In this document: positions 16,240 through 57,025 of the stretch, in pieces | Numbering within the stretch: the first letter of the stretch is position 1 | Layout of the letters: every line of letters starts with the position of its first letter | NCBI GenBank assembly: GCA_035235625.1 | Contig: CP141144.1 | Location: forward strand, 46,002,014-46,066,013 | From: Saururus chinensis | Lineage: Eukaryota; Streptophyta; Magnoliopsida; Piperales; Saururaceae | Length of the DNA stretch: 64,000 nucleotides | Reading direction: 5' to 3' | The notes under the pieces: model-generated | What the model was told of the DNA's origin: nothing | Database searches by the model: none | The model's input: the letters and a program-made list of their open reading frames with translations, nothing else | Program-made: the position numbers and the translations under genes

Positions 16240-19200
16240 ATGGCTAGATGGGATGAGATATTGTCACTCCCAGTTCAGAGTCCACCAACTTTGGAATTCT
16301 CTGCTGCCGACATACTTTGGTCTAAAGTCGAAGGCTGGCGTGATGCAATCGACAGAGTTGCTCTTATTCCCTTCTCTAGAGTGGATGACTTTGTAAGGGG
16401 TGAGTCTGCGAATAAGGAATGTCCCACTAGATTTCATGTCGAAGCAAGGAGAAGGCGACCTCCTGAGATGCCATACAAACAAAAGGTGGACGGAATTATT
16501 GAATATATTTTGTAAGTAATTTCTCCTTTAGATTTTTTATGCCCTTTTGGTCCTTCCTTTGTTCTGTAAATACAAGTGGTTCCTCTGCAATTGCTTTTAC
16601 TGTCTTGACATGATTCTATATGAAAATTAATTACATTTCTTGTTGTTTCTTTGCATGCTCTCTAGTTCAACTTATCTAATTACTGAACTCTTCTGCCAAT
16701 GACTTTGTGGAATGTCCAGGTATTGGTGCTCATTTGGACCAGATGATCACAGGAAAGGTGGAATCATTCGGCCAAGTCGGGTTTATAATGCAAAGAGGAA
16801 AACTCCTGCTGGTAGACCAAACACAAAGAGAGGTTGTGTTTGTCATTTCATTGTAAAACGTCTAATCGCAGAACCAACAGTTGCACTTATTATATATAAT
16901 CAGGATAAACATGTTGACAAGAAAGGCCAGCCATGTCATGGCCCTTTAGACAAGAAGGCTGTGGGAACACGAGCCATGTATGCTCCATACATTTCGGAAG
17001 AGCTTCGTCTGCGGGTTCTGTCTTTGCTATATGTGGGAGTCCCTGTGGAAACCATAATGCAGAGGCACACGGAATCAGTGGAAAAGCAGGGTGGTCCTGC
17101 TAATCGGGATGATCTTCTGACCCACAGGTATGTTCGGAGGCTGGAGAGAAGTATCCGCCGATTTTCTTATGAGGTAGATCCGGATGATGCAGTTAGTGCT
17201 GGCATGTGGGTTGATAGCCACAGGAATCACATATTCTATTACGAGGATTTTACTGATTCTGATCCAATTGTTTTGGGGATTCAAACGGACTGGCAGCTGC
17301 AACAGATGATTCGATTTGGTAATCGCAGCCTCATAGCATCAGATTCCTCATTTGGGACAAACAAACTGAAGGTTTGTTTATCTTTTCTTATAAATCTATA
17401 TTGTTTCAAATTCATTTAATAAATATTACTCATTTGTATTATACTATGTCTAGTATTCAGTTCAGAGCCTTGTTGTCTTCAATGAGAACAACAAAGCTGT
17501 CCCTGTAGCTTGGATTGTCACTTCTCTGTTTGCAAATGGGGAGGCACACAAGTGGATGAGGGCTCTGTATGACAGAGTTCATTCGAAAGATCCAACATGG
17601 AAATTGGCTGGATTTATAGTTGATCTTCCTTCAGCAGATATTCTCACTATAAGGTTTCACGTTTGTCCTTATTCTGTTAATATTGATATATGTAGGGTTT
17701 GGGAGCTGAAACTTTTTCTGTCCTTTCTGGCTTGCTCAGGGAAGTGTTCCAGTGCTCTGTACTGATCAGTTTTTGGCGGGTTCGACATTCCTGGCATAAG
17801 AATCTAGTGGAAAAATGTCAAGATTCTGAGATGTGTATTGAAATATTAAGCCGTCTTGGGCAAGCAGTCGACTGCATCTGCAGAGAAAATGGTGATTTTG
17901 ACTTATTTGAGAATTTTATAGAAGATTTTGTTGATTGTGCAGAGTTTTTGGATTACTTCGTCGCAGTATGGCTCCCTAAATTAGGTTGGTTTGACTTGAA
18001 ATGCTTAGTATTTTTAAGCAATGTTTTGTTTTATTTATTTGGGACACTTACTTTCCTTTCCTTGTTCAAACAGGGATGTGGACCAGGGCATTGAAGGTGC
18101 TTCCTATTGCTAGCCAGGAAACTTGTGCAGCCATGGAATTTTATCATCATCAACTGAAGCTTAGGCTGCTAAATGAGAAAGACCATAATGCCTATCAACG
18201 CCTAGATTGGCTTGTTCATAGGTTAGGTACGAAAGTGCATTCTTATTACTGGTTGGATGAATACCCGAGGAAAGATGACTTTGCTCGGTATCAGAAGGAT
18301 GAATGGATTAGTGGTTCAACATTTTGGCAGCAGGGCTCCCAGATTCCAGATTCTGATGTTTTTCTGGAACAGAGATGTGCAAAAGTTATAAGCCAACAAG
18401 ATCGTCAAAAGACCTACATTGTTTGGAACCCAGGTTCTGATTTTGCATTATGTGAATGTGATTGGTCAAGAGTTGGTTATTTATGTAAACATGTAATTAA
18501 GGTTTCCCAAGTTTGTCGCAGAAAAGGATTGGCCCCATTGTCTATCAGCCTCCTCAAATATAACCAGATGTTGGTCAATATGCTTCATTGTCCACCTAAT
18601 GATTCCTTGATTCGTGATCATGCAGTTTCCCTTGCTGTCTCTGTGCAGATGCAGTTGAATATGATCTTGAATGCAGCAAACTGCCACCATTCACAAACTG
18701 CTGTGGCACCTGTGGAACAACCATCAGCTCGTCAAAATGGCAATTCATCTGGCATAGATGAAGTTGTGATAAATGAAAACCAATCTATGGCTGAAAACAG
18801 CAGCTGTTTTGGAATGACAGATGAAGTGCAAGCTGATCATGCTAAAGAGACCTTTCCTGACATCCAAATGGACATCGATAGCACTCCCTTGAATGAATGC
18901 AGGCCCATTGTTGAAGAGCAGATTCCTGCTGGTAATTTACTCGAAAATGGGCGGACAACTAACACAAGCTTAAACTTTGATACCTGTGTGCATGCCTCTT
19001 TGAACATGGAAACTCAAGAAAAAACTAACAATACGGCTACTATTGATACTGTGGCTGAGCTTGATGAGTGCGGAGGGGGTGTCAATGTGAAGAAAATGAT
19101 GGAATATACTACCTCTGTGAACAGTGTGTTAGAAAATAGTGAGGGCGATGATGTGCTTGACAGCTTAGATGCAAGTTCTTTTGTCTTCCCAAATATGGAA

Positions 19201-19689
19201 GTTCACGATGATACCAGGATTGCTGGAGAAAATATAATGGATGTGTTGCAAAGTGATGATGGCATTGCAGCTGTTGCAGAAGAAGTCGCATTAAGTATTA
19301 GTAACTTATATGAGAAGGGAGAGAAAGACATTATGGGCAGCCCAGATGTAAACGTGTTTGTTTGTTCTAATCAGGATAATCCAGATGATGCCAGGGTTCG
19401 AGTTATTGGCCGCACTGACCTTCATGTTAATAATATAAATGGTGATGACATTGTTGGAGACGGAACTGTTTCCAGTCTCCCTGAGAATCATGTATTGATA
19501 AATGAACAGAGTGATAATACAGACAAAAAATTACTTGTGGACACCTTCACATCCCCTATGGTTGAAACACAAGATGATTCTGAGCTTGTAGGCTTTATAC
19601 ACGGGAAGATGGAGTGTGCAGATGGTGAGAATGGAGCTTGTTCTGTTGAATATTTGTCCCCCAAAACCATCGAAGGCATCTCTGAATAA
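16240..19689 (+). CDS. SWIM zinc-finger protein derived from a MULE transposase
   Basis: Exons 16240-16511, 16720-17371, 17454-17653, 17740-17984 and 18074-19689 join in frame to 994 residues. The middle part is a MULE transposase-like core: SDSSFGTNKLK (D299, first acidic residue), VVFNENNKAVPVAW, and GFIVDLPSADI (D365). A SWIM finger follows at 583-596 (CECDWSRVGYLCKH: C583, C585, C594, H596). Residues ~650-994 are acidic, low in hydrophobic clusters and probably disordered. It fits the plant family of single-copy SWIM proteins such as Arabidopsis At1g60560/At4g13970, domesticated from Mutator-like elements and thought nuclear; the molecular role is unknown. No terminal inverted repeats flank it, and introns and an intact frame argue for a host gene. 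The third catalytic acid was not placed. Confidence 0.93.
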
Positions 19690-20430: not shown

Positions 20431-22071
20431 TTATTAATTTTTTTTTTTGTGTATACATCTTCTCCATTCTCAAAAATTAGCTCAATCAAGGTTTCACTTA
20501 CTGAAACGTTCTCTTATAAGTGGTATATTATGAAGCCATAATCTATAATATTTACAGTATCAGTTGCTTTTGGTGACCATAGCTCACAGTACATTTTCAT
20601 GTTTTTGGTGTCGTTAGTGTTGAATTTCGGAAATATGTACATGGAAATCTGATTAAGGATGCTACTGTAGCAGTATTTTAAAACCGACCCGGCCAGTGAC
20701 CCAGAATTATGGCGGGGTCATGATTTATAACTAAGGTGATGTTTGGGTACGGAATCGAGAGAAAATTCCGACGATTCCATCATAATTCAGCATAGAATTA
20801 CTAGAATCTTGTTTGGATATAGAATGTAAACGGAATTAAAAATTCCGTCGGAAACACGATTCAGTCGCGTTTCCGTCCTGAATCACCGAATCTCCTCGCG
20901 AGGAGATTCGGTCGATTCCAGAAAACGCGTTAAAACGGAAACACGCGTTATCGCGTATTTCCAGCCCTTACCCCTCATAAATGATTCGCCCTCTCGTCTT
21001 CGACCCGATCTTCTCTCTCACTGTTTCCCTCGTCTGTCTCGTCTCCCTCCCCTTGCATTCCATCGGAGCCAGTGTTGCCGTCGAAGGAAGCTACTGCCGT
21101 CTGAAGAGGGCCTCCGACCTCCTCTGCCAATCTCCCTCTGGAGGTCGGCGGTCTCTGCTCCAATGGCGGACGGACGACAGCCCCATCGTAGCCATAAATA
21201 CTGAAGCCTGCCTGCGGACCACCGGTGCGCGAGCAGTTTCTGTTGCCTGAAGTCCGGCTAGCGATGGAAGAATCTGAGCAATGTCTGCAGCTTCGCTCTT
21301 CACCAGATACTTTCTTTTACAATGAGCTATTGTTTCCCCCAGAAATACAATCCATGAATGTCATTCAATCTAGTCCTCTCCGAGCTTCGAGCGAAGGTGG
21401 CGGTGGACCGGGGCGACTTCGGCGCCTGGATCTCACTCCTTTCCGAAGTCGAGAAAGTATCGCCTATAATCGTCACCACTAATCATCACATATGTTTTGG
21501 TTTCACAGTTTATGTTTGTACATAAAGGTTTCTGCTTTACGGGTTATCCCTCCCATCCTATAATTCGTTTCTATATTTGCTTTATTCTTGTTTTGCAGGA
21601 TGACATTGGCAGCACATCGGAGGTGTATGACTTGTTCTTGTTGGAGTTCCCATTAGTTTGTATCTAGTTGACTCTTGGACTGATCTGTTGTGGTATTTGT
21701 TCAAGTTTTCTTCTTTTATATAATTGTTTTATCATGGTTTTTGTACCAATACCATGTTTTCTAACATTTTGGAGCAGTTCCGAAGTACACTAAATTGGTG
21801 ATGGCCGTACAAAATATTTGGCATAAGTAACTAATGATTTTTCCCCATAAAAATGTGTTCATGATGGTCTGGAACATTTAATATGGAAGTTTACTAGCTT
21901 AGTTTTTTGCATTTGAAGTTATAAAACAAGATTACAGTTAGTATATATTGTGCTTGTTATTTATTAAATGTAGATTGACTGCCTTTTGGATTTGTCAAAG
22001 TTAGGAACAAGGTAAGCAAATTGAAAACTGGGAGCAATGTTCCTCAGGTGTATTACATCTGTGTTGTGCAG

Positions 22072-22201
22072 GTGATTTTGGGACTGTTATTGTTCACAGC
22101 TCAACAGAAAATAAAGCTGCCAATGAGGTAGAAGGGCATTTACCTGTAGATGAAAATATGAAATTTGCACCTGGACCAAAAGTTACCACAGATAACATTC
22201 G
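22072..22201 (+). pseudogene. Unidentified exon-like fragment inside the element
   Basis: A 130-bp stretch is open in one frame (GDFGTVIVHSSTENKAANEV onward, 43 codons), preceded by TTGTGCAG and followed by CG|GTAAAC, so it looks like a real internal exon. The parent gene was not identified. A possible smaller companion is DDIGSTSEVYDLFLLE at 21600-21647. It lies upstream of the iminopeptidase exons and in the same direction, but the composition does not belong to that protein. Confidence 0.4.
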
Positions 22202-22600
22202 GTAAACTTTAATCTCATTCTATGAGCGAGGAGTTCAGTCGGCTGCCTACTCTGTCCATCTCTAGGCCAGTTACTGCAGTTTTACAATGCTATCTTTTGA
22301 AGATCCAGACGATGTCCGAAGGTAAAATTTTGTTTTGTAACGAAGATGATTTCTCTGATTGGACACTGCCAAAGAAGCTGTGATATTACTTAAAATGTCA
22401 TGACTCATTATTTGTTGTTGGGTAGTTCCCCTTAAAGCTCCTCAATGTTTCCTTACCTCTACTATGAGCTTGATGATGATGTCTGGCATGTATAAGAACA
22501 ATAATGTAGTAAGCTAATTCACTCAATAAACTGAAATGTTACAGTAGCAGAAATATTTATGTGCATGGTAATTCATTTGACATATGACACATATTTTCAG

Positions 22601-23384
22601 GGAAGGTATGACATGTGCTGCCCAATGATGTCAGCTTGGGATCTTCACAAAGCATGGCCAGAAGCAAAATTTAAGGTTCTACGAATAACATTAGTTGCTA
22701 GTATGTCATTAGGAGTGGGATGGTACAAGCAACCCTTAGCCAATTCCTGTAATTGGACCTTGCGTAAAATAGGAATTGCAGGGATGTAAGACCAGGAAGA
22801 ATTTATTTTGACCATCCAAAGCTCGTGATACTGCTGCTTGGTTAGGCTTGTACTAGATGGCAGAGCCCATTCAGAATGGTAGGATAAAGTCTACAATGAT
22901 AACAATCATGCTGAGAATGACAATGGGTTGGCCATCAGATGCAAACATCAGTAATCATTCCCCATCAAAGGTTTTGCATTTCGCATGCTGGTGCTCATTC
23001 AAGTTGATAAACATGCTTTCTAACCTTGGCTGCTATTATATGTAATATTAGCCTCGCATTACCGTGAATAGAGGCAGTGATTGAATAAAATATGCTAGAA
23101 ATCGTGTGCAGTTTATCAAAGACGTTGCCATAAACTATTAACAGTCTACTAGGATTGCATCGGAGAAAGTATTAGCTGTTACTAATTTTTAACTGAAATT
23201 GCTGCTAATTTGCCTTCTATTGGATGACCTAATGCATTCTTTGTGTGCGGTAGTGCCAGACGCAGTTCACTCTGCAAGTGAACGAGGGATAACTGCTGCT
23301 CTTGCAGCGGGGACTGAGAAGCTGATGAACATCTTAAAGGAGAAAGGGGCCCAAATGTACCCATTTACCATAGCCCTCATGTAG
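22601..23384 (+). pseudogene. PIP: Proline iminopeptidase 3' exons, captured and broken
   Basis: Exon 22601-22675 (acceptor TTTTCAG, donor AAG|GTTCTA) reads GRYDMCCPMMSAWDLHKAWP and then EAKFK, the conserved stretch before the catalytic His of plant prolyl aminopeptidases. The final exon 23250-23384 reads VVPDAVHSASERGITAALAA and ends with TAG after a short extra tail. The catalytic His is kept, but the usual DAGHSANE is DAVHSASE. The acceptor of this exon reads CG where AG is expected. The N-terminal two thirds, with the nucleophile Ser and Asp, are absent. Introns are kept, so the capture was from DNA and not by retroposition. Confidence 0.85.
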
Positions 23385-23465
23385 TATGACTGGAACCTCA
23401 CAAGTTTATTTAAAAAATAGATTTCATTTCATGCATTTACAATCAATTTACGTGGGGCGTATCAC

Positions 23466-23700
23466 CTTGAATTGTACCATATCGGTCTCAACCGATATAG
23501 GTACGTACAATACTTAGTATCGGCCGGTATGAACTTTCATGGGCCCATCAAGCCACAAAAGAATTTTTGAGGAGCATAACACCTCTTGACCAATACAAGT
23601 ACGTACGACACTCAATATCGGCTAGTACGAACTTCCATTGGCCCGTCAAGCCATAAAAGAATGTTTGAGGAAAAATATGAGGCCTTTGTACTTCTATAAT
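23466..23700. repeat. Dimer of a ~110-bp GTACG/TATCGG-rich repeat
   Basis: Two units share AGTACGTACGACACT/GGTACGTACAATACT, (A/G)TATCGGC(C/T)(G/A)GTA, TGG(G)CCC(A/G)TCAAGCCA and AAAAGAAT.TTTGAGGA. The unit also contains the short palindrome-like TATCGGTCTCAACCGATA. It lies inside the TAA-flanked element, right of the iminopeptidase exons. The origin is unknown. Confidence 0.75.
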
Positions 23701-24194
23701 TAATTTTTAAAATAAAATAACTTTTTTAGCGTGATCATAAACTGTTCTATATGGCCCAAAGCCAAATACATTAGGTCAGGCATATTGTTAGTGATGCACA
23801 CTAACCACGTACAATGCTTAAATGAAGGTTATTTTTTTAATTTTTTTCATAAATTTAACAATTCTAAATAAATACACAAATTTCTTACCCAAAAATGATT
23901 CTATTAAAACAATTCCATTTAAAGGGTATATTTGTCAATTTATCTAAAATTTTAAAGAATTAACCTTAAACACAATTCGCTATCCAAACACGATTCCATA
24001 TTAAAAATTCCATACCCAAACAAAATTCCGATTTTATATTAAATCGGCGGAATCAATTCTAAAAAATTTCAATTCACTACCGAATTGATTCCGTACCCAA
24101 ACGACCTAAATGACCCAATTCAAAAAACCTACCGGGTCTAGTTGGACAGGGTTTAAATGGCCAGGTCGGGTTGGGTTTTAACACTGCATCCTTA

Positions 24195-31700: not shown

Positions 31701-32197
31701 ATCAAACAGCATTCTGTCTTATGGTTCAGCAAGTTGTATCCTTTATCTGCCTTAAGTTTTCTTCGGTAAATTAGAGAAACAAATAAGGGTATATAATACC
31801 AAAATCTAAATCCTTAAAGCTATGTCCGATTGTATCGACTCAATTTAGCAGGTTCAAGCACAACACTACCAAACATCAAGAGGCAAACATGCAAAAGGTC
31901 TAAAACAACAGCATATGCAATGAAACCGAAAAGAACCGGGATCAAACAAATCCATACACAGCATGTCCAGCAGATCGTATCTACCTTAACAGAGATGGTG
32001 GGGGGTTCAAGATGATCCTCGCTGATAACGGCGTAATCGGCCAGGACGACGACATTGGCCTGGATGTCCTCGGATACGCACTTGGTTCCCGTCGCCGGAA
32101 TGTTCAGCCAGATGGCCTGGGACAGAGGAAGAAGCGAGCCGAGACAGAAGCAGAGCAAGCAAACCAGGGCCGCTTTCAGCTTCGCATCCTTCGCCAT
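25708..32197 (-). CDS. Transmembrane emp24 domain protein, p24-delta subfamily
   Basis: Exons, minus strand: 31985-32197, 26096-26311, 25933-26009, 25708-25852, joined in frame to 216 residues, the usual p24 length. Signal peptide about 1-28 (hydrophobic [19 protein letters not shown]). The GOLD domain carries the two disulfide cysteines in GTKCVSED and [11 protein letters not shown] coiled-coil stretch ([20 protein letters not shown]) follows, then one membrane span ([14 protein letters not shown]) and a short cytosolic tail RYFQKKKLI with a KKxx COPI-retrieval signal and an aromatic residue pair. Type I membrane protein cycling between ER and Golgi as a cargo receptor and coat-recruiting subunit with p24-beta. 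The first intron is 5.7 kb, swollen by a duplication and a transposon; the frame is unaffected. The subtype (delta-1 or delta-2 clade) was not decided. Confidence 0.95.
26546..28845. repeat. Left copy of a ~1-kb intronic tandem duplication, split by an insertion
   Basis: Matches 28969-29933 in the same direction: TTCACTAATGT.CCATGTAAAAACTTTCC at the start, CTGGTTCAGCTCAT.AGAGATCTA near the middle, and GATGCATGCCTTCCCT and ACTCTCAAGGAATTCCA at the end. In this copy the match is broken exactly at 27433-28680 by a Mutator-type element. Confidence 0.9.
27433..28680. mobile_element. Non-autonomous Mutator-like element in p24 intron 1
   Basis: Ends are inverted: left TAGTGGTGTTAACGAGCCAA, right read on the minus strand TGGTTGTTAACGAGCCAAGC. 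The direct repeat TACCTCCTAG (27423-27432 and 28681-28690) flanks it, at least 9 bp, as Mutator elements make. About 1.25 kb, with CTCGAG/GAGCTC-rich ends and an extremely AT-rich core (28130-28480). No transposase. The uninterrupted duplicate at about 29755 serves as the empty-site control. Confidence 0.88.
28969..29933. repeat. Right copy of the intronic tandem duplication
   Basis: Same direction as 26546-28845, with about 120 bp between the copies. This copy lacks the 1.25-kb insertion; the text runs straight through ACTATCTCCTAACTTTCCTC. A poly-A run at 29447-29462 replaces AAAATATATAG of the left copy. Confidence 0.9.
29934..31984 (-). other. Rest of p24 intron 1, no gene inside
   Basis: AT-rich intron sequence. 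No coding frame of recognisable family, and no inverted-repeat ends, were found between the duplication and exon 1. Confidence 0.5.
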
Positions 32198-32510
32198 CGT
32201 CGCGCAAGTGCACCACCAAACCGATCGAAATTGGACAGGAACTGAACGGGGAACTAAACCCAGATCCCCGATTCTCGAATTGACGCGGTTGATCGCCGGA
32301 TGGGCTTAGGGCTCTGAAACAGAGAGTCGCAGAATTGGGGAAGGACTCCACCCGGGCCCGGCGTAGAATTTTCCAACAGCTCCGCTCCCCTACGCAATCC
32401 CCGCTGGGTTGGGTAAAGGGTCGGGTCAAATTGTCGGGAAAACTTTACTTTGGGTCGGATTGGTGGGTAATTTTATTTTGTTCTCAATTAAGGGTTTGAT
32501 GTTCATCTGA
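32198..32510 (-). promoter_or_regulatory. 5'UTR and proximal promoter of the p24 gene
   Basis: GC-rich stretch directly upstream of the start codon, giving way to AT-rich DNA at about 32440, just before the left end of the large Mutator-like element at 32511. The element therefore sits about 310 bp upstream of the start codon. No sharp TATA box was picked. Confidence 0.5.
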
Positions 32511-46612: not shown

Positions 46613-47148
46613 GGGGTCGTTTGGGTACTGAATTAATTCAGTAACGATTCGATTTAGTAGCGATTCAATTCAGTAAATTCATCGCTGATTATGAATTACG
46701 TTTGGCTATAGAATTTGTTAAAATAAATTCAGATGTCACGTCAAACCTAGTCTTAAAACTTTATACACCTCTAACTTTCTCTTTCGAACTCGGATATGCA
46801 CGTTCTTGGTACTATTACACTCCTAAATTCAAGCTCTATCAAACAAGATCCCACAAGGGTAGGTAATTTTGAACTTTTAAAGTGGGCCCTACCTATATGA
46901 CACGTTTTTTGAAGCTCAAATCGATATGAACAATAAACATTAAAAAATAATAGAATCTGTAATTTTTAAAACGGTGAGGTGATTCAGTGATTCAGTCTTG
47001 ATTCAGGCTGAAACGGACTGAATCTTACTACAGTGCTGAATTTTTAATTCAGCGCAATTTCAGTACACAAACAAGATTCTAATAATTCAGTGCTGAATTG
47101 ATACTGAATCGGCTGAATCTTCTCACGATTCAGTACCCAAACAGCCCC
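46613..47148. mobile_element. 536-bp PIF/Harbinger-type (Tourist-like) MITE
   Basis: Left GGGGTCGTTTGGGTACTGAA and right, minus strand, GGGGCTGTTTGGGTACTGAA are near-perfect inverted ends. TAA flanks both sides (46610-46612 and 47149-47151). The sister block A has the uninterrupted form at about 44352-44376, which confirms the insertion. Confidence 0.88.
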
Positions 47149-51763: not shown

Positions 51764-54700
51764 TCACCCATCTAGATGCCTGGGCCTTTTACCTTCACTT
51801 GAGCCTCCTCCGTTTAATTCTGCTTCAAACACAGGCCGAGTTCGATACTCATATCTCCATGCACAATACAAGAAAATACAGAAATTGATCACACTCAAAA
51901 CTGCAAGGAGCCAATATAAGTAATCAAATCTCCCAGTGTTTATGTTCTGTGATAGCCATGACGGTCGGCCTTCTTCCTTGTTCCGAGTAATAGATTCTAC
52001 AATGTTGTTGAGTATTGTAGCAGCAAAGCAGCCCAAACCACCAGCTACAGCAGCATAAGCCGACCCCACACTTCTCATTGCATCAGGGGCCTCCTCATAA
52101 AGGAATTCTAAGAGACCCACAATGCAAAATACCTCAGCAATGCCAATCAAGCAATATTGTATCAGTAGCCAAAATGCACTCAGATTAGGCATGGCAGTCA
52201 AAAACATATACTCATACCCATGTTTTACTGCATAGTTTCTTCTGTACCTCTCAAAGACGCCAGCCCAGGCCACAGAAAAGATTGACACTGCCAGACCAAT
52301 TCCTACCCTTTGAAGCTGAGAGGCACCATGAGGATGGCCAGTTATTCGACGAGAAACTGGAACAAAGGTGGAATAGTATAGAGAAAGGATGAGAAAGATG
52401 CTGAGGCCAGGAAAAACAGGCATACATGTTACTGGCAATTTAAGTCTTCCCATGTGAGTGTTTAAAGTGTATGCTTGCTGGACAGATAGAGTGAGAAACT
52501 CAGTTAATATAACGCTGAGCATTATTGTGCAGGCTGGTATTGGAAGAAGTTTCACTAGTATCTTGACCTCTTCAACTTGGGTTACAGTGCAAAGTCTCCA
52601 GGGGCTTGGATTGGTACCATCTTCTTTTAATTGCAAGGCTGCCTTGTCCAAACACCTGCAAGGATGCAGCCAATAGCATATCTGAGCTTCTTGTCTCAAA
52701 GTCCACTAATATTGAACCAGTTAAGATAATGTATCCTCAAGTGCAAGTCTTCTCAAGAAGCACACTAAACATATTATTCAAGTATGACAGTTAAATTTTC
52801 AGAAGAAATCTCGTAAAATGACAATATTCTAACTAACCAAAACATTAAGGATAATATGGCTGATACTTGTCATTTTAGTTTAGTTTGGTCTGGTTTTGCT
52901 GATATCAATGGTTGTCTTTTCCCTAACAGCTTAACCATTATGACGACTTGGTTCTAGCAAGGTACCAGATCCCTAGGTCCTGAATTTGGTTTGGTTGATA
53001 TCCTTTGTTTAACTTTCCCTAATAACAAGCTTTCAGGAGACCTGACTCTGACAGAACAATGCGCTGACCTAGATATTTGCAGACCCAAGGATATGATTTT
53101 TTCCATTTTTGCAGCATATTCAAACAGCACAAAGACTAATTGAATTTACTTAAGCAAATTCGTATTGGAGAGGGAACTTATTCCTATTCAGACAAGATTC
53201 TATAGAAATAAAAAAGGGCCACTGCCAGAAGTGTCTCATTATTTTCGTTTTAGATTATCTTCAGGTAGGATTGCTCTGCTTTAACAGCTATAATTACATT
53301 GCTGACTAAGAAGATGTAATTGACCACTATATATGAAAATCTATATCAAGAAGAATGGCTGTAGTACAAAAAAAAACTGTTTGAAATGATACAGATATGG
53401 AAATTAGGTACCTAAAATCATCTGTGTGAGTGATTTTTCCACTGCCCTTGATAGCTGATCTCTTCCCAGGAAGTTCATACAAGCCTACTAATTCACTGCT
53501 GGAGAAGGATGCATTTCTCTTCCGGAAAGCAGCAACTAGGACCTGGGCCATGCGTGTGAGGGGACTACCACCTGGTAGCCTGTGACGATATAGGGGTGTG
53601 CCTAGGAAAAAAATCACATTTGAGATAGCCATTGCTATTGCCAGTGATGCAAAAGCAGAAGCCCACCCATGTTTCATTTGGATATAAACTACCATGGTGA
53701 AGGCCACAATGGCCCCTATAGTGACAGAAAGGTAGAAAAAGTTGAAGAAACGATCCAACAGGGATTTATAGTCCCTTCTTCGCTCATCAAATTGATCAGC
53801 TCCAAATGATGAGACACAGGGTCTGATGCCTGCAGCTCCAAATCCTGTAATGTATAGGATACTATATAAGTAGAGCATTTGCCATGACTTTGCCGGCTCA
53901 CAGGTACCCAAGAGTATAGATACTTTATCGCAATTAGCTTGACTTGGCATCAGAACCTTCAAAGTGGCGCACAAGGTTATTCCAATTAAACCCTGCAAGA
54001 AAAAGATTGGTTTGACAGAAAAGGTGAGTGTACAGAGCTATGGAAGCTCAATATATTGTTTGAACATAGTGTCCTTGTACTACCAAAACAATGAACCTTG
54101 TCATTTGGTATGCTTGTCTCAATTGGATACATAATTCTTTAGTCAATTAATAAACTAATATAGAGAAATTGTGCCGGGAGGACTAGGTTGCACTGCTCAC
54201 TTGTCAAAAGTTGTTTTAGGATAAGAAGGTACAACAAATACAAAGATGCTATCTTCCATATAAAAAAGCATAGAATTCTTATTATGCCTTCCAAAAGGAA
54301 TCTTCTGTGACATGTGGATTTCTCACGAGATGCCCTTTTAAATTTTTCCAAAGGACATGCAGGCAGTTTTAGATGAAGCTTCTTCATTTTGACTAATTTT
54401 TAAATCATCATCCAGGCCTTGTCCCAGCCATCTGAGATCAATGACAAGGATTCTATTTTACAGTTTGACTCTTGTTATAATCAAAATGTTGATAAAAAAT
54501 TAGTGCAAATAATCAGTGGAATATCCATTGATGAAGAAGTGAAAGAACAGAGACAGATTTATAGCTAAATATAAGCACAGGAAAAACAAATCCAAGATAT
54601 TTTGAGGTAAACAATGTTATGGAATTGCGTAATTTTGAAAAGAGCCAACTTCAATCAATAAATTAAAGCAAGATATCATAAATGACATGATTTTGTAGCT

Positions 54701-55765
54701 TAGGTCATACCAAAAGATAGAGGGTAGTGAAGATGGCAATTGTCCAATAACGCCCAAGATATGCATCCGCTAGAAACCCACCAAGCACAGATGAAGCTTG
54801 TGATATGCCTAAGAAATTGTTGACAGCATTTGCAGAGCTACTAAAAGGTCGATGCATCACATAGAACATAAAGGCCACCATATTGACTGACAGGCCAAAA
54901 TAAGCCATTCTTTCAGCCATCTCATTCCCTGCACGACCAGAAAAAAGAGAAAAAAAATTGGTTTCATTAATCAAATAAGTTTGACAGGGAACAAATGCAT
55001 GCAGGAAACCAATTGCCTCAAAAGCTCGTACTATCAAGGAATGGCCCAAAAATGAATATCAAAGCCGGGATTGCCCAAATAGGTAGAAGCAAATAGACAA
55101 ATGATCCAATACCCCCCTTGCATAGGCAAGTATAATTTAACATATGCAAATGCTTGCATGTGCACAGAAAACAGAGCCAGGGGCAAGGATCGAAACTAAG
55201 ACCTCCCAGCTCCAATACCATATTAGAAACCAAGTTGCCTAAAAAACTCAAGCTATCAAAGAACGACCCAACAATGTATATCAAAGCCGAGATTGGCCCA
55301 AACGGATAGATGCAGACACCTGAGCATTGCATAAAACATTGAAAATGAGCACACAACCTCATTAACTCATAAAAACCAAGTCAGATATCATCCATTGCGG
55401 TAAAAACAGGTGATCTACCTCCAAAAGTTATTACGTTCAAGGAAAATATATTTTTATATATAATTTTGAAACAAATTGTTTTACCTACCAAAGATGAAGA
55501 AAGCGGCAATCCATCCCCCTGTCTTTGGCAGATTTTCTATGGGCTTGCCACGGATAGTTACAGGTGTTGCTCCCCCTATGTAGCCACCACTAATTGATGT
55601 TTGTCTCTCATCACTCTCAGCAAAGTATTTTCCAAGTTTCTTTCTATGAAATGAGTCGGAATAAGGATCTGACTTCACATTGTCCTCAAAGGAGCCATAA
55701 TTGTCCTTCGGCATTGGTGATTTTTCGGCCAAAATTTCTGGGGATTTGACTTGCTTTGTTCCCAT
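51764..55765 (-). CDS. NPF6.1: NRT1/PTR family transporter, NPF6.1 type
   Basis: Coding exons, minus strand: 55489-55765, 54711-54928, 53412-53992, 51764-52655; GT-AG introns and constant frame, 655 residues (Arabidopsis NPF6.1 about 620). It is a major-facilitator protein with about 12 membrane spans. The proton-coupling ExxER motif is E95-M-A-E98-R99 in GNEMAERMAYFGLSVN. Further subfamily blocks are the N-terminal NYGSFEDN and RRKLGKYF-like KKLGKYFAESDERQT, IRPCVSSFGADQFDE, PLYRHRLPGGSPLTRMAQVL, TLSVQQAYTLNTH, EVFCIVGLLEFLYEEAPDAM and WLSQNINTGRFDYLYWLLA. The N-terminal half (GGATP, KTGGWIAAFFIFG) matches NPF6.1 far better than NPF6.2-6.4, so the nitrate transceptor NRT1.1 is not meant. Proton-coupled uptake of nitrate, peptides or hormones is known for the family; the substrate here is not deducible. 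The start ATG directly follows a leader intron. Confidence 0.95.
55012..55312. repeat. Direct repeat pair in NPF intron 1
   Basis: About 55012-55090 and 55234-55312 share TTGCCT.AAAA.CTC and TATATCAAAGCCG(G/A)GATTG plus CCCAAA.(A/G)G(G/A)TAG. Diverged; origin unknown. Confidence 0.6.
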
Positions 55766-57025
55766 ACCTGCACTAAACAGAAAAAAAAGCCATAAATTGT
55801 TATGATCAGTCACAAAGAATCAATACTTGTAGAAAGTAACAAGCTTTCATTGCAGAAGACATGGCCATGTGTACTCCATAGGTGGGAGAAAAGCTTCCTA
55901 TAAGAAGAACAAATTAACATTTACAGTACAAGAAAATAATAACAATAATACAAACTTGAATTGTAATGTGTTAAGCATTACGGATTTCCTTCAGAAACTA
56001 CTGCAAAATATACTGCTTAATTTTCATATATTTATTCAAGTGAATTTCTTATGGCTAGAATGAGTCCACTTCTTTTCCTCACTAATCAATTTAATAATCA
56101 GTAAACTACAATTGCTTCACAGTTGGAAATCGGAATTTCACCCGTCATTCAATTAATAATCTTTTCTTGAGTAAACACGGAAGTTTGTTTCATAAGTATT
56201 TCAATACCCTTGCAGATGCATAGATTTGGAGTAAAACCATCAATCATAAAGAAACAAAAAAAGAACGAAAAAGGCTATAAAAAATGACAGAATCCTTAGC
56301 AAGCAAACTAAATTTGCTGAAAACGAAATTGCAACAAATGTATCCAGTTGAACAGAAATATTATACTCAGCAATAAGTCACCAGGATCAGAAAAAGAGAG
56401 CAAAAATTCAGCACATTAGATGTGTCAAATTAAGATTGCAGAAGACCCATTAAGCCTACTTAGTTTTGATGGTAATCCCTTCTACACTCAAAGCTCAAAT
56501 CAAACAAACAGAACCACTTCAGATAAGGAAATACAAGGTAGAAACGAGCCAACTGAAAAATTTTAACTCCCATTAAATATGCTCTACCTGCTCCTTCTAA
56601 TTCATCAAGTTCTAAGGCTCCTTTGCTGACACACACACATACACTTAGAAACCAAGGACCTCTCGGACATGCAAAATACAACTCGAACTCCTACACCAGA
56701 ACATGATCTTTTCAGAGAGGCCAACCAACAACTTCCTAGTTCCTAAATAATAGAACCCAGAAAAAGACTCACTCACTTAGTCACTCCATGACGGTGAACC
56801 CAAGAAGTCGATTATACTATTCAGTACAGAAAACCCCTGAATTTGGCCTTGATGATAATAGAAAGAGCATTTAAGCAAGAGTAGTGGTGCTCCAACCAAC
56901 ACATGGGCAGTGAGAAGCACAAGCGCAGTTAAATTAATGCGGGGAAGATGGGGCGCCAATGCGCCATGAAGGCTTTACCTGCCGAGTCGGGCATGAAAAT
57001 TGGAAGGCTGGACCAGGTGGGGTTG
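55766..57025 (-). promoter_or_regulatory. Leader intron, 5'UTR and start of the NPF promoter
   Basis: An acceptor TTAGTGCAG|GT lies two bases before the ATG. A matching donor, CTCGGCAG|GTAAAGCC, at 56979/56978 predicts a 1.2-kb leader intron (55768-56978). The open frames in between are not genes. Confidence 0.5.

Follow-up and report, generated by a model that had tools for sequence, protein, structure and literature searches.

A likely PIF/Harbinger-type transposon of Saururus chinensis with intron-containing pieces of three host genes, probably acquired stepwise

How does a short transposon without a transposase of its own come to hold exons of ordinary host genes together with their introns? 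The question is raised by an element in a stretch of 64,000 nucleotides of the Saururus chinensis genome (the window; C5:46002014-46066013 in a host assembly of 516,460,831 bases and 11 contigs). The original prediction had described near-identical inverted ends flanked by TAA at window positions 20735-24106 and, between them, two exons of a proline iminopeptidase (PIP) gene and an exon-like piece left unidentified. Based on the analysis below, we consider it very probable that this is a non-autonomous PIF/Harbinger-type element which carries pieces of three host genes with introns, was filled stepwise by gap repair and was spread to nine places by the transposase of its relatives.

The element is 3.37 kb long and lies between TAA target-site duplications at 20732-20734 and 24107-24109. 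Its inverted repeat (20741-20756 against 24087-24102) agrees at 16 of 16 positions, just as the prediction of near-identical ends implied, the outermost bases being unequal (GGTGATG versus GGTCG). The left end with its subterminal region (20735-21190, forward strand) recurs in other members of the family up to about 21106, as does the right end with its own subterminal region (23477-24106, forward strand). Two direct repeats of 83 bp, 82% alike, are present in the right part (23491-23573 and 23589-23671), and similarly doubled matches occur in some other copies. That the arrangement goes far beyond chance is supported by the left 301 bp, which recur almost from first base to last at 8 further places in the host genome (87-99% identity), and by a 536-bp relative within the window (46613-47148, reverse strand), flanked by TTA on either side and about 76% identical to the focal element over the left 150 bp. 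The same 301 bp gave 67 matches in all; for both figures 40 of 514 first-look candidates were scored, and whole-genome repeat counts are lower bounds. The 536-bp relative is itself MITE-like. The window further contains three reading frames that we take to resemble a SWIM/transposase-type gene (16240-19689), a small membrane protein gene (31820-32305) and an NPF-type transporter gene (51764-55819). The interior of the focal element is mostly explained by its ends and its cargo, and a transposase of its own is absent. The cargo consists of pieces from PRP39, SIK1 and PIP in one common orientation, a combination (hereafter the chimera) that is present in nine copies in the host assembly.

The PIP piece (22459-23445, forward strand) comprises the last two exons, the intron and the 3' flank, and aligns with its donor, L041:5294-6295 (C9:8.44 Mb), at 93.0% identity, intron included. 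The presence of two PIP exons in order, with the intron between them, was thus correctly predicted. The penultimate exon lies at 22601-22675 and the last exon, which bears the catalytic-His motif, at 23250-23345 (both forward strand); the PIP exons match the profile TIGR01249 (E=1e-16) and PDB 5yhp (E=7.2e-14). The named proteins among the 120 matches listed for this piece are all from plants. Relative to the date palm protein (411 residues), the PIP exons in the donor locus span roughly residues 91-407, the gene start lying beyond the region examined. In a comparison with other plants, the PIP gene showed about the same degree of similarity to many angiosperms. The catalytic-His exon of the window copy lacks an AG acceptor, again as predicted: the donor reads TGTGCAG and the window copy is one base shorter there. 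The same shortening is found in 9 of the 9 copies covering the site (8 chimeras and L042); AG is absent from 8 of them and present in L013, which reads TGTGAG. The penultimate exon has an open reading frame in all nine chimeras. When the piece was searched against the host genome, 12 of 12 candidates matched. They comprise the nine copies (one partially), L042 and the donor, together with a weak further match inside the donor locus: a 78% copy of the 3' region of the last exon (L041:7200-7281, C9:8.4427 Mb), located about 0.9 kb downstream of the part that was captured.

The PRP39 exons had been missed by the original prediction. PRP39 is a splicing factor, and its donor locus, L056, lies on C6 (36.84 Mb). 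The first part of the captured piece (21171-21654, forward strand) runs from the start codon region through exon 1 and the intron to the start of exon 2 and is 89.7% identical to L056:4372-4865; the second (22219-22450, forward strand) holds the remaining exon 2 and an intron and is 93.6% identical to L056:4937-5167. The clean left joint is nearer 21190, which corresponds to the start codon of the donor. Joined, the two exon pieces match PF23240 (HAT_PRP39_N, E=2.3e-7), and the exons of L056 match both N- and C-terminal models of PRP39; a comparison of the captured pieces with the PDB gave no meaningful match. The start codon reads ATA in 9 of 10 aligned element copies, the window copy included, and ATC in L011; L060, discussed below, retains ATG. 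The donor segment yielded 24 matches from 13 candidates in the host genome: the donor, an unbroken match in L042, 19 pieces from the nine chimeras, two pieces at C4:37.06 Mb and a 71% match at C6:34.91 Mb, which is likely a paralogue. All nine chimeras break PRP39 at the same point (donor-query 494|566).

This break is occupied by a piece of SIK1, a Hippo-like kinase. The PRP39 match ends at 21654 and resumes at 22219, and the SIK1 match spans exactly 21655-22218 (forward strand), so that 564 bp of SIK1 stand precisely where 71 bp of the captured PRP39 exon are gone. The piece is a kinase fragment consisting of a 43-codon exon with flanking non-coding sequence, 95.7% identical to L055:5141-5700 (C9:30.53 Mb). 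Both joints are blunt: microhomology was found at neither, and no transposon ends remain at either. The exon (22074-22202, forward strand; DFGTVIVHSS...TTDNIR), which as a starting lead we took to belong to a plant Hippo-like kinase, encodes a protein segment identical to that of the host SIK1 donor, and all 43 residues are in an open frame in the nine chimeras. The match of L055 to plant SIK1 proteins holds exon for exon. Several SIK1 orthologues carry DFGTVIVH at a similar place among the best 120 of 7837 matches, from a query set that included the exon itself; a padded search with the exon alone gave no match. In the host genome, 12 of 12 candidates matched the piece. Ten of these are the nine copies and the donor; the remaining two, each 42 bp long, are due to the PRP39 sequence next to the piece and lie in the PRP39 gene and in L042. 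The description of the exon-like piece as unidentified in the original prediction is rejected, given a host SIK1 gene identical in the exon, and the picture of one donor plus an unknown gives way to one of three donors.

All three donor genes reside at their own loci and are about 90-96% identical to the cargo, introns included. Intron retention had been read as a sign of capture at the DNA level; this is borne out for PIP and extends to PRP39 and SIK1. Over 9.9 kb at each donor locus, the element matches its own cargo only, bar one 32-bp match (87.5%) of its right part in L056. Averaged over the nine copies, substitutions relative to the donor amount to 3.0% for SIK1, 5.7% for PIP, and 7.4% and 4.6% for the two parts of PRP39. 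Divergence from the donors would place SIK1 last and gives no order between PRP39 and PIP; it does not by itself set PRP39 before PIP, because part 2 of PRP39 is nearer to its donor than PIP is. The cargo of the window copy looks pseudogenic: it no longer has the start codon of PRP39 or the splice acceptor of PIP. The sequences compared give no sign of a coding role for the chimera cargo.

The original prediction had proposed a search for other copies with the same ends, and these are plentiful. The nine chimeras are distributed over C1, C2, C4 (two), C5, C7, C8 (two) and C11. Five end as the window copy does, and four have a longer tail. L009, L010, L011 and L014 match the window element over its full length (94-99%), while L012, L013 and L015 match it to 23430 and L016 to 23062, the longer tail following; L012 continues into L057, where a right end with TAA is reached, at a distance of about 5.9 kb from the left one. 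Of the aligned sites, 0.52% differ between the window copy and L009, and 1.2-1.4% between L010 and these two; the remaining chimera pairs differ at 2.6-5.1%, and L042 differs from each of the nine at 7.2-8.4%. Altogether, 20 family regions were compared with the element, 8 of them carrying the cargo of the window copy and 12 (L017-L028) not. The latter share the left end in 12 of 12 cases and right-end sequence in 10 of 12, and their interiors differ. Identical TAA or TTA on both sides was observed in 15 of the 17 family elements with both ends found (the window copy, L009-L012, L017-L022, L024, L025, L028 and the 536-bp relative), and the other two, L014 and L026, show a mismatch on one side. 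This count leaves aside L013, L015, L016, L023 and L027 (right end not found or beyond the region), L042 (rearranged) and L060/L061 (left end truncated). When the joined flanks of the focal element were used as an empty-site query against this single assembly, there was no uninterrupted match; apart from its own two flanks, the query retrieved just two partial matches of 47 bp.

Gene pieces are also seen elsewhere in the family. L017-L020 form a second gene-carrying subfamily with the family ends, comprising four 4.3-kb copies (C6:9.03 Mb, C2:20.54 Mb, C10:26.10 Mb and C5:2.45 Mb) that are 97.6-99.4% identical, with a phosphofructokinase exon in L017 (PF00365, E=2.2e-11); L021 is a shortened relative of these. 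L025 and L028 (about 3.5 kb, mutually 94.6% identical) constitute a third subfamily. L022 may hold another gene piece, as the frame at L022:2416-2706 (...VELIPKMVPILISYLKDDTSAVARQAI) resembles a HEAT-repeat exon, perhaps, we presume, of symplekin.

To which superfamily does the element belong? The family has 3-bp TTA/TAA target-site duplications and shared terminal inverted repeats, both features of PIF/Harbinger elements. Between the two ends of L026 lies a putative C-terminal fragment of DDE_Tnp_4 (L026:2076-2510, reverse strand; PF13359, E=3.4e-5), whose 23.9 bits are just under the Pfam cutoff of 24.8. L023 encodes a Myb/SANT-like domain above the cutoff (Myb_DNA-bind_3, PF12776, E=1.6e-15; L023:1293-1721, reverse strand) in a frame about 3.2 kb inward of its left end; with no right end found in the region, the frame may or may not lie within the element. 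Both loci have the family left end, and they are 97% identical to each other over 2.4 kb. Based on the TTA/TAA flanks, the DDE_Tnp_4 piece and the Myb/SANT-like domain, the focal element is likely a non-autonomous PIF/Harbinger-type cut-and-paste transposon. No intact autonomous element was found among the family loci examined. Within this type, the features are those of Pack-TYPE elements (Pack-PIFs): a terminal-inverted-repeat element that encodes no transposase and contains pieces of host genes resident at other loci, and movement after capture, seen in nine copies with identical joints. Two other assignments were rejected. Pack-MULEs have target-site duplications of 9-11 bp, and that of the element is 3 bp; Helitrons have neither inverted ends nor a target-site duplication, and both are present here.

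The order in which the cargo was assembled can be approached through two loci that differ from the chimeras, so that three structural stages are distinguished: PRP39 only (1 locus), PRP39+PIP (1 locus) and PRP39+SIK1+PIP (9 loci). The PRP39-only locus, L060+L061 (C4:37.06 Mb), has both family end regions, although the left one lacks its outermost 179 bp and an inverted L017-like element abuts there. It shows the same element-specific PRP39 joint as the other copies, and its PRP39 sequence (more than 2 kb, about 90%) extends past the point where they switch to PIP. There is no PIP or SIK1 match in the 7.5 kb of the locus. Since an internal PRP39 deletion spans the SIK1 site, the missing SIK1 is uninformative; the missing PIP is informative. 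In L042 (C2), PRP39 is contiguous through the 71 bp, with 3 of 71 positions differing from the donor, and PIP is present without SIK1. L042 matches the element over 20976-23975; its outermost ends are not in place, and an inverted right-end piece lies about 0.6 kb further on. A maximum-likelihood tree was built from the PRP39 and PIP parts of the cargo alone, with the SIK1 columns omitted, the two donors merged as one outgroup row and L060 left out. It unites the nine chimeras in one clade (support 99) that excludes L042 and the donor. We infer that L042 and L060/L061 are preserved ancestral stages, each represented by one damaged locus.

The long-tailed copies group together in the same tree (support 98). 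Their tail extends for about 2.75 kb after PIP (L012:3639-5701 and L057:1-1215); part of it is 96% identical to L023/L026, and its right end is about 90% identical to L026 and L017-L020 versus about 82% to the window type. As L042 has short-type sequence after PIP, the long tail likely arose later, and we interpret it as the product of an exchange in which a relative of the transposase type took part. A reverse-strand frame in the tail (L057:3-176) may be a further captured exon.

These observations are best explained if breaks or gaps inside the element were repaired by synthesis that copied ectopic gene DNA in, one step at a time. For SIK1, an internal gap of 71 bp (2.5% of the earlier length) would have been filled with DNA copied from elsewhere, in line with the prediction of a gap-filling model, and the resulting chimera would have spread to nine places by means of transposase from relatives with the same ends, which presumably moved its copies. 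The main competing explanation, to which we give a small chance, is that two family members came to flank host DNA and, once their inner ends had been lost, transposed together as a single unit. Such fusion of neighbours has been proposed for Pack-TYPE elements of all superfamilies, Pack-PIF examples included (PMC8903248). It could account for the first capture, that of PRP39, and for the longer-tailed subfamily, in keeping with the likeness of the tail to L023/L026 and of its right end to L026 and L017-L020; L060, too, adjoins an inverted family member. Yet fusion does not readily place a piece inside an earlier captured exon. SIK1 lies within the PRP39 piece, exactly replaces 71 bp of it and has blunt joints with no remnants of ends, and on these grounds gap filling is favoured and is probably how the SIK1 joint arose. 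Fusion is further at odds with donors at three separate loci on two contigs, none of which has the family end region within its 9.9 kb beyond the 32-bp match in L056. One point counts against gap filling, namely that the joints lack the microhomology it often leaves.

Slightly less probable still is that L042 and L060 are derivatives of the chimera in which SIK1 (and PIP) disappeared and gene conversion by the PRP39 gene restored the missing PRP39 sequence. Such a reading gains from each stage being a single damaged locus, but L042 differs from the donor within the very stretch that would have been converted and falls outside the SIK1-bearing clade, and L060 combines the element-specific PRP39 joint with ATG, where ten other copies have ATA or ATC. 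Finally, decayed resident genes with coincidental ends, a reading for which eroded exons speak and nothing more, are refuted by nine dispersed copies with the same joints and matching TAA/TTA flanks and by donor genes located elsewhere, the resident PIP gene among them.

Returning to stepwise gap repair, we somewhat favour a broader formulation, in which this Pack-PIF lineage overwrites itself. Each new gene piece would replace part of an earlier capture through blunt gap repair, and the genome would retain the series PRP39, PRP39+PIP and PRP39+SIK1+PIP, followed by the tail exchange with a transposase-type relative. Such a record would speak against fusion of neighbours being the general mode of gene capture in plants. 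There is as yet no agreement on how the cut-and-paste elements of plants acquire genes: fusion of neighbouring insertions is favoured for Pack-TYPE elements (PMC8903248), and work on animals supports gap filling and calls its application to plant Pack-MULEs worth exploring (PMC8277862). In the present case, donors, stages and both joints of one capture are legible base by base in one genome, so that the two models give different, checkable predictions.

With Pack-MULEs the chimera shares DNA-level capture and amplification of gene pieces, and it differs from them in its ends and in its target-site duplication (3 bp versus the longer 9-11 bp). Gene capture by PIF/Harbinger elements, which the original prediction held to be less well known, is already documented (PMC2528002, PMC8903248). 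Literature searches on staged capture or Pack-PIFs gave little beyond these two papers and PMC8277862; a search for the term Pack-PIF matched PMC8903248 alone, and the word Harbinger is absent from the main text of a 2026 review (PMC13317346). The Pifvine-3 transduplications of grapevine (2008) resemble the present case in that PIF elements hold host exons with introns, some common to several copies; there, the captured DNA makes up a long 5' region, the family members concerned being described as having ORF1 and transposase regions, and no staged series comparable to ours is described in the text available (PMC2528002). Gap-filled Pack-TIRs of animals likewise have a small internal gap filled with ectopic DNA (median 4.6% of the element versus 2.5% here), but those described are mostly single-copy, and in 67.6% of cases microhomology is present at one joint or at both (PMC8277862), whereas the SIK1 joints are blunt and the element is amplified. 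The Pack-PIFs of maize and rice (2022) resemble the chimera in their PIF ends, in flanks that are mostly TTA/TAA, in carrying pieces of host genes and in being multi-copy; a subgroup of maize cluster 18 even gained a second such piece, and the authors infer fusion of neighbouring elements (PMC8903248). The chimera departs from what that paper describes in that its three donors are identified, its pieces contain introns and are larger (0.56-1.0 kb), and a piece added later takes the place of part of one captured before. Overall, gene capture by PIF elements is known already; the value of this further case lies in a readable capture sequence with clean joints and an unusually complete fossil series.
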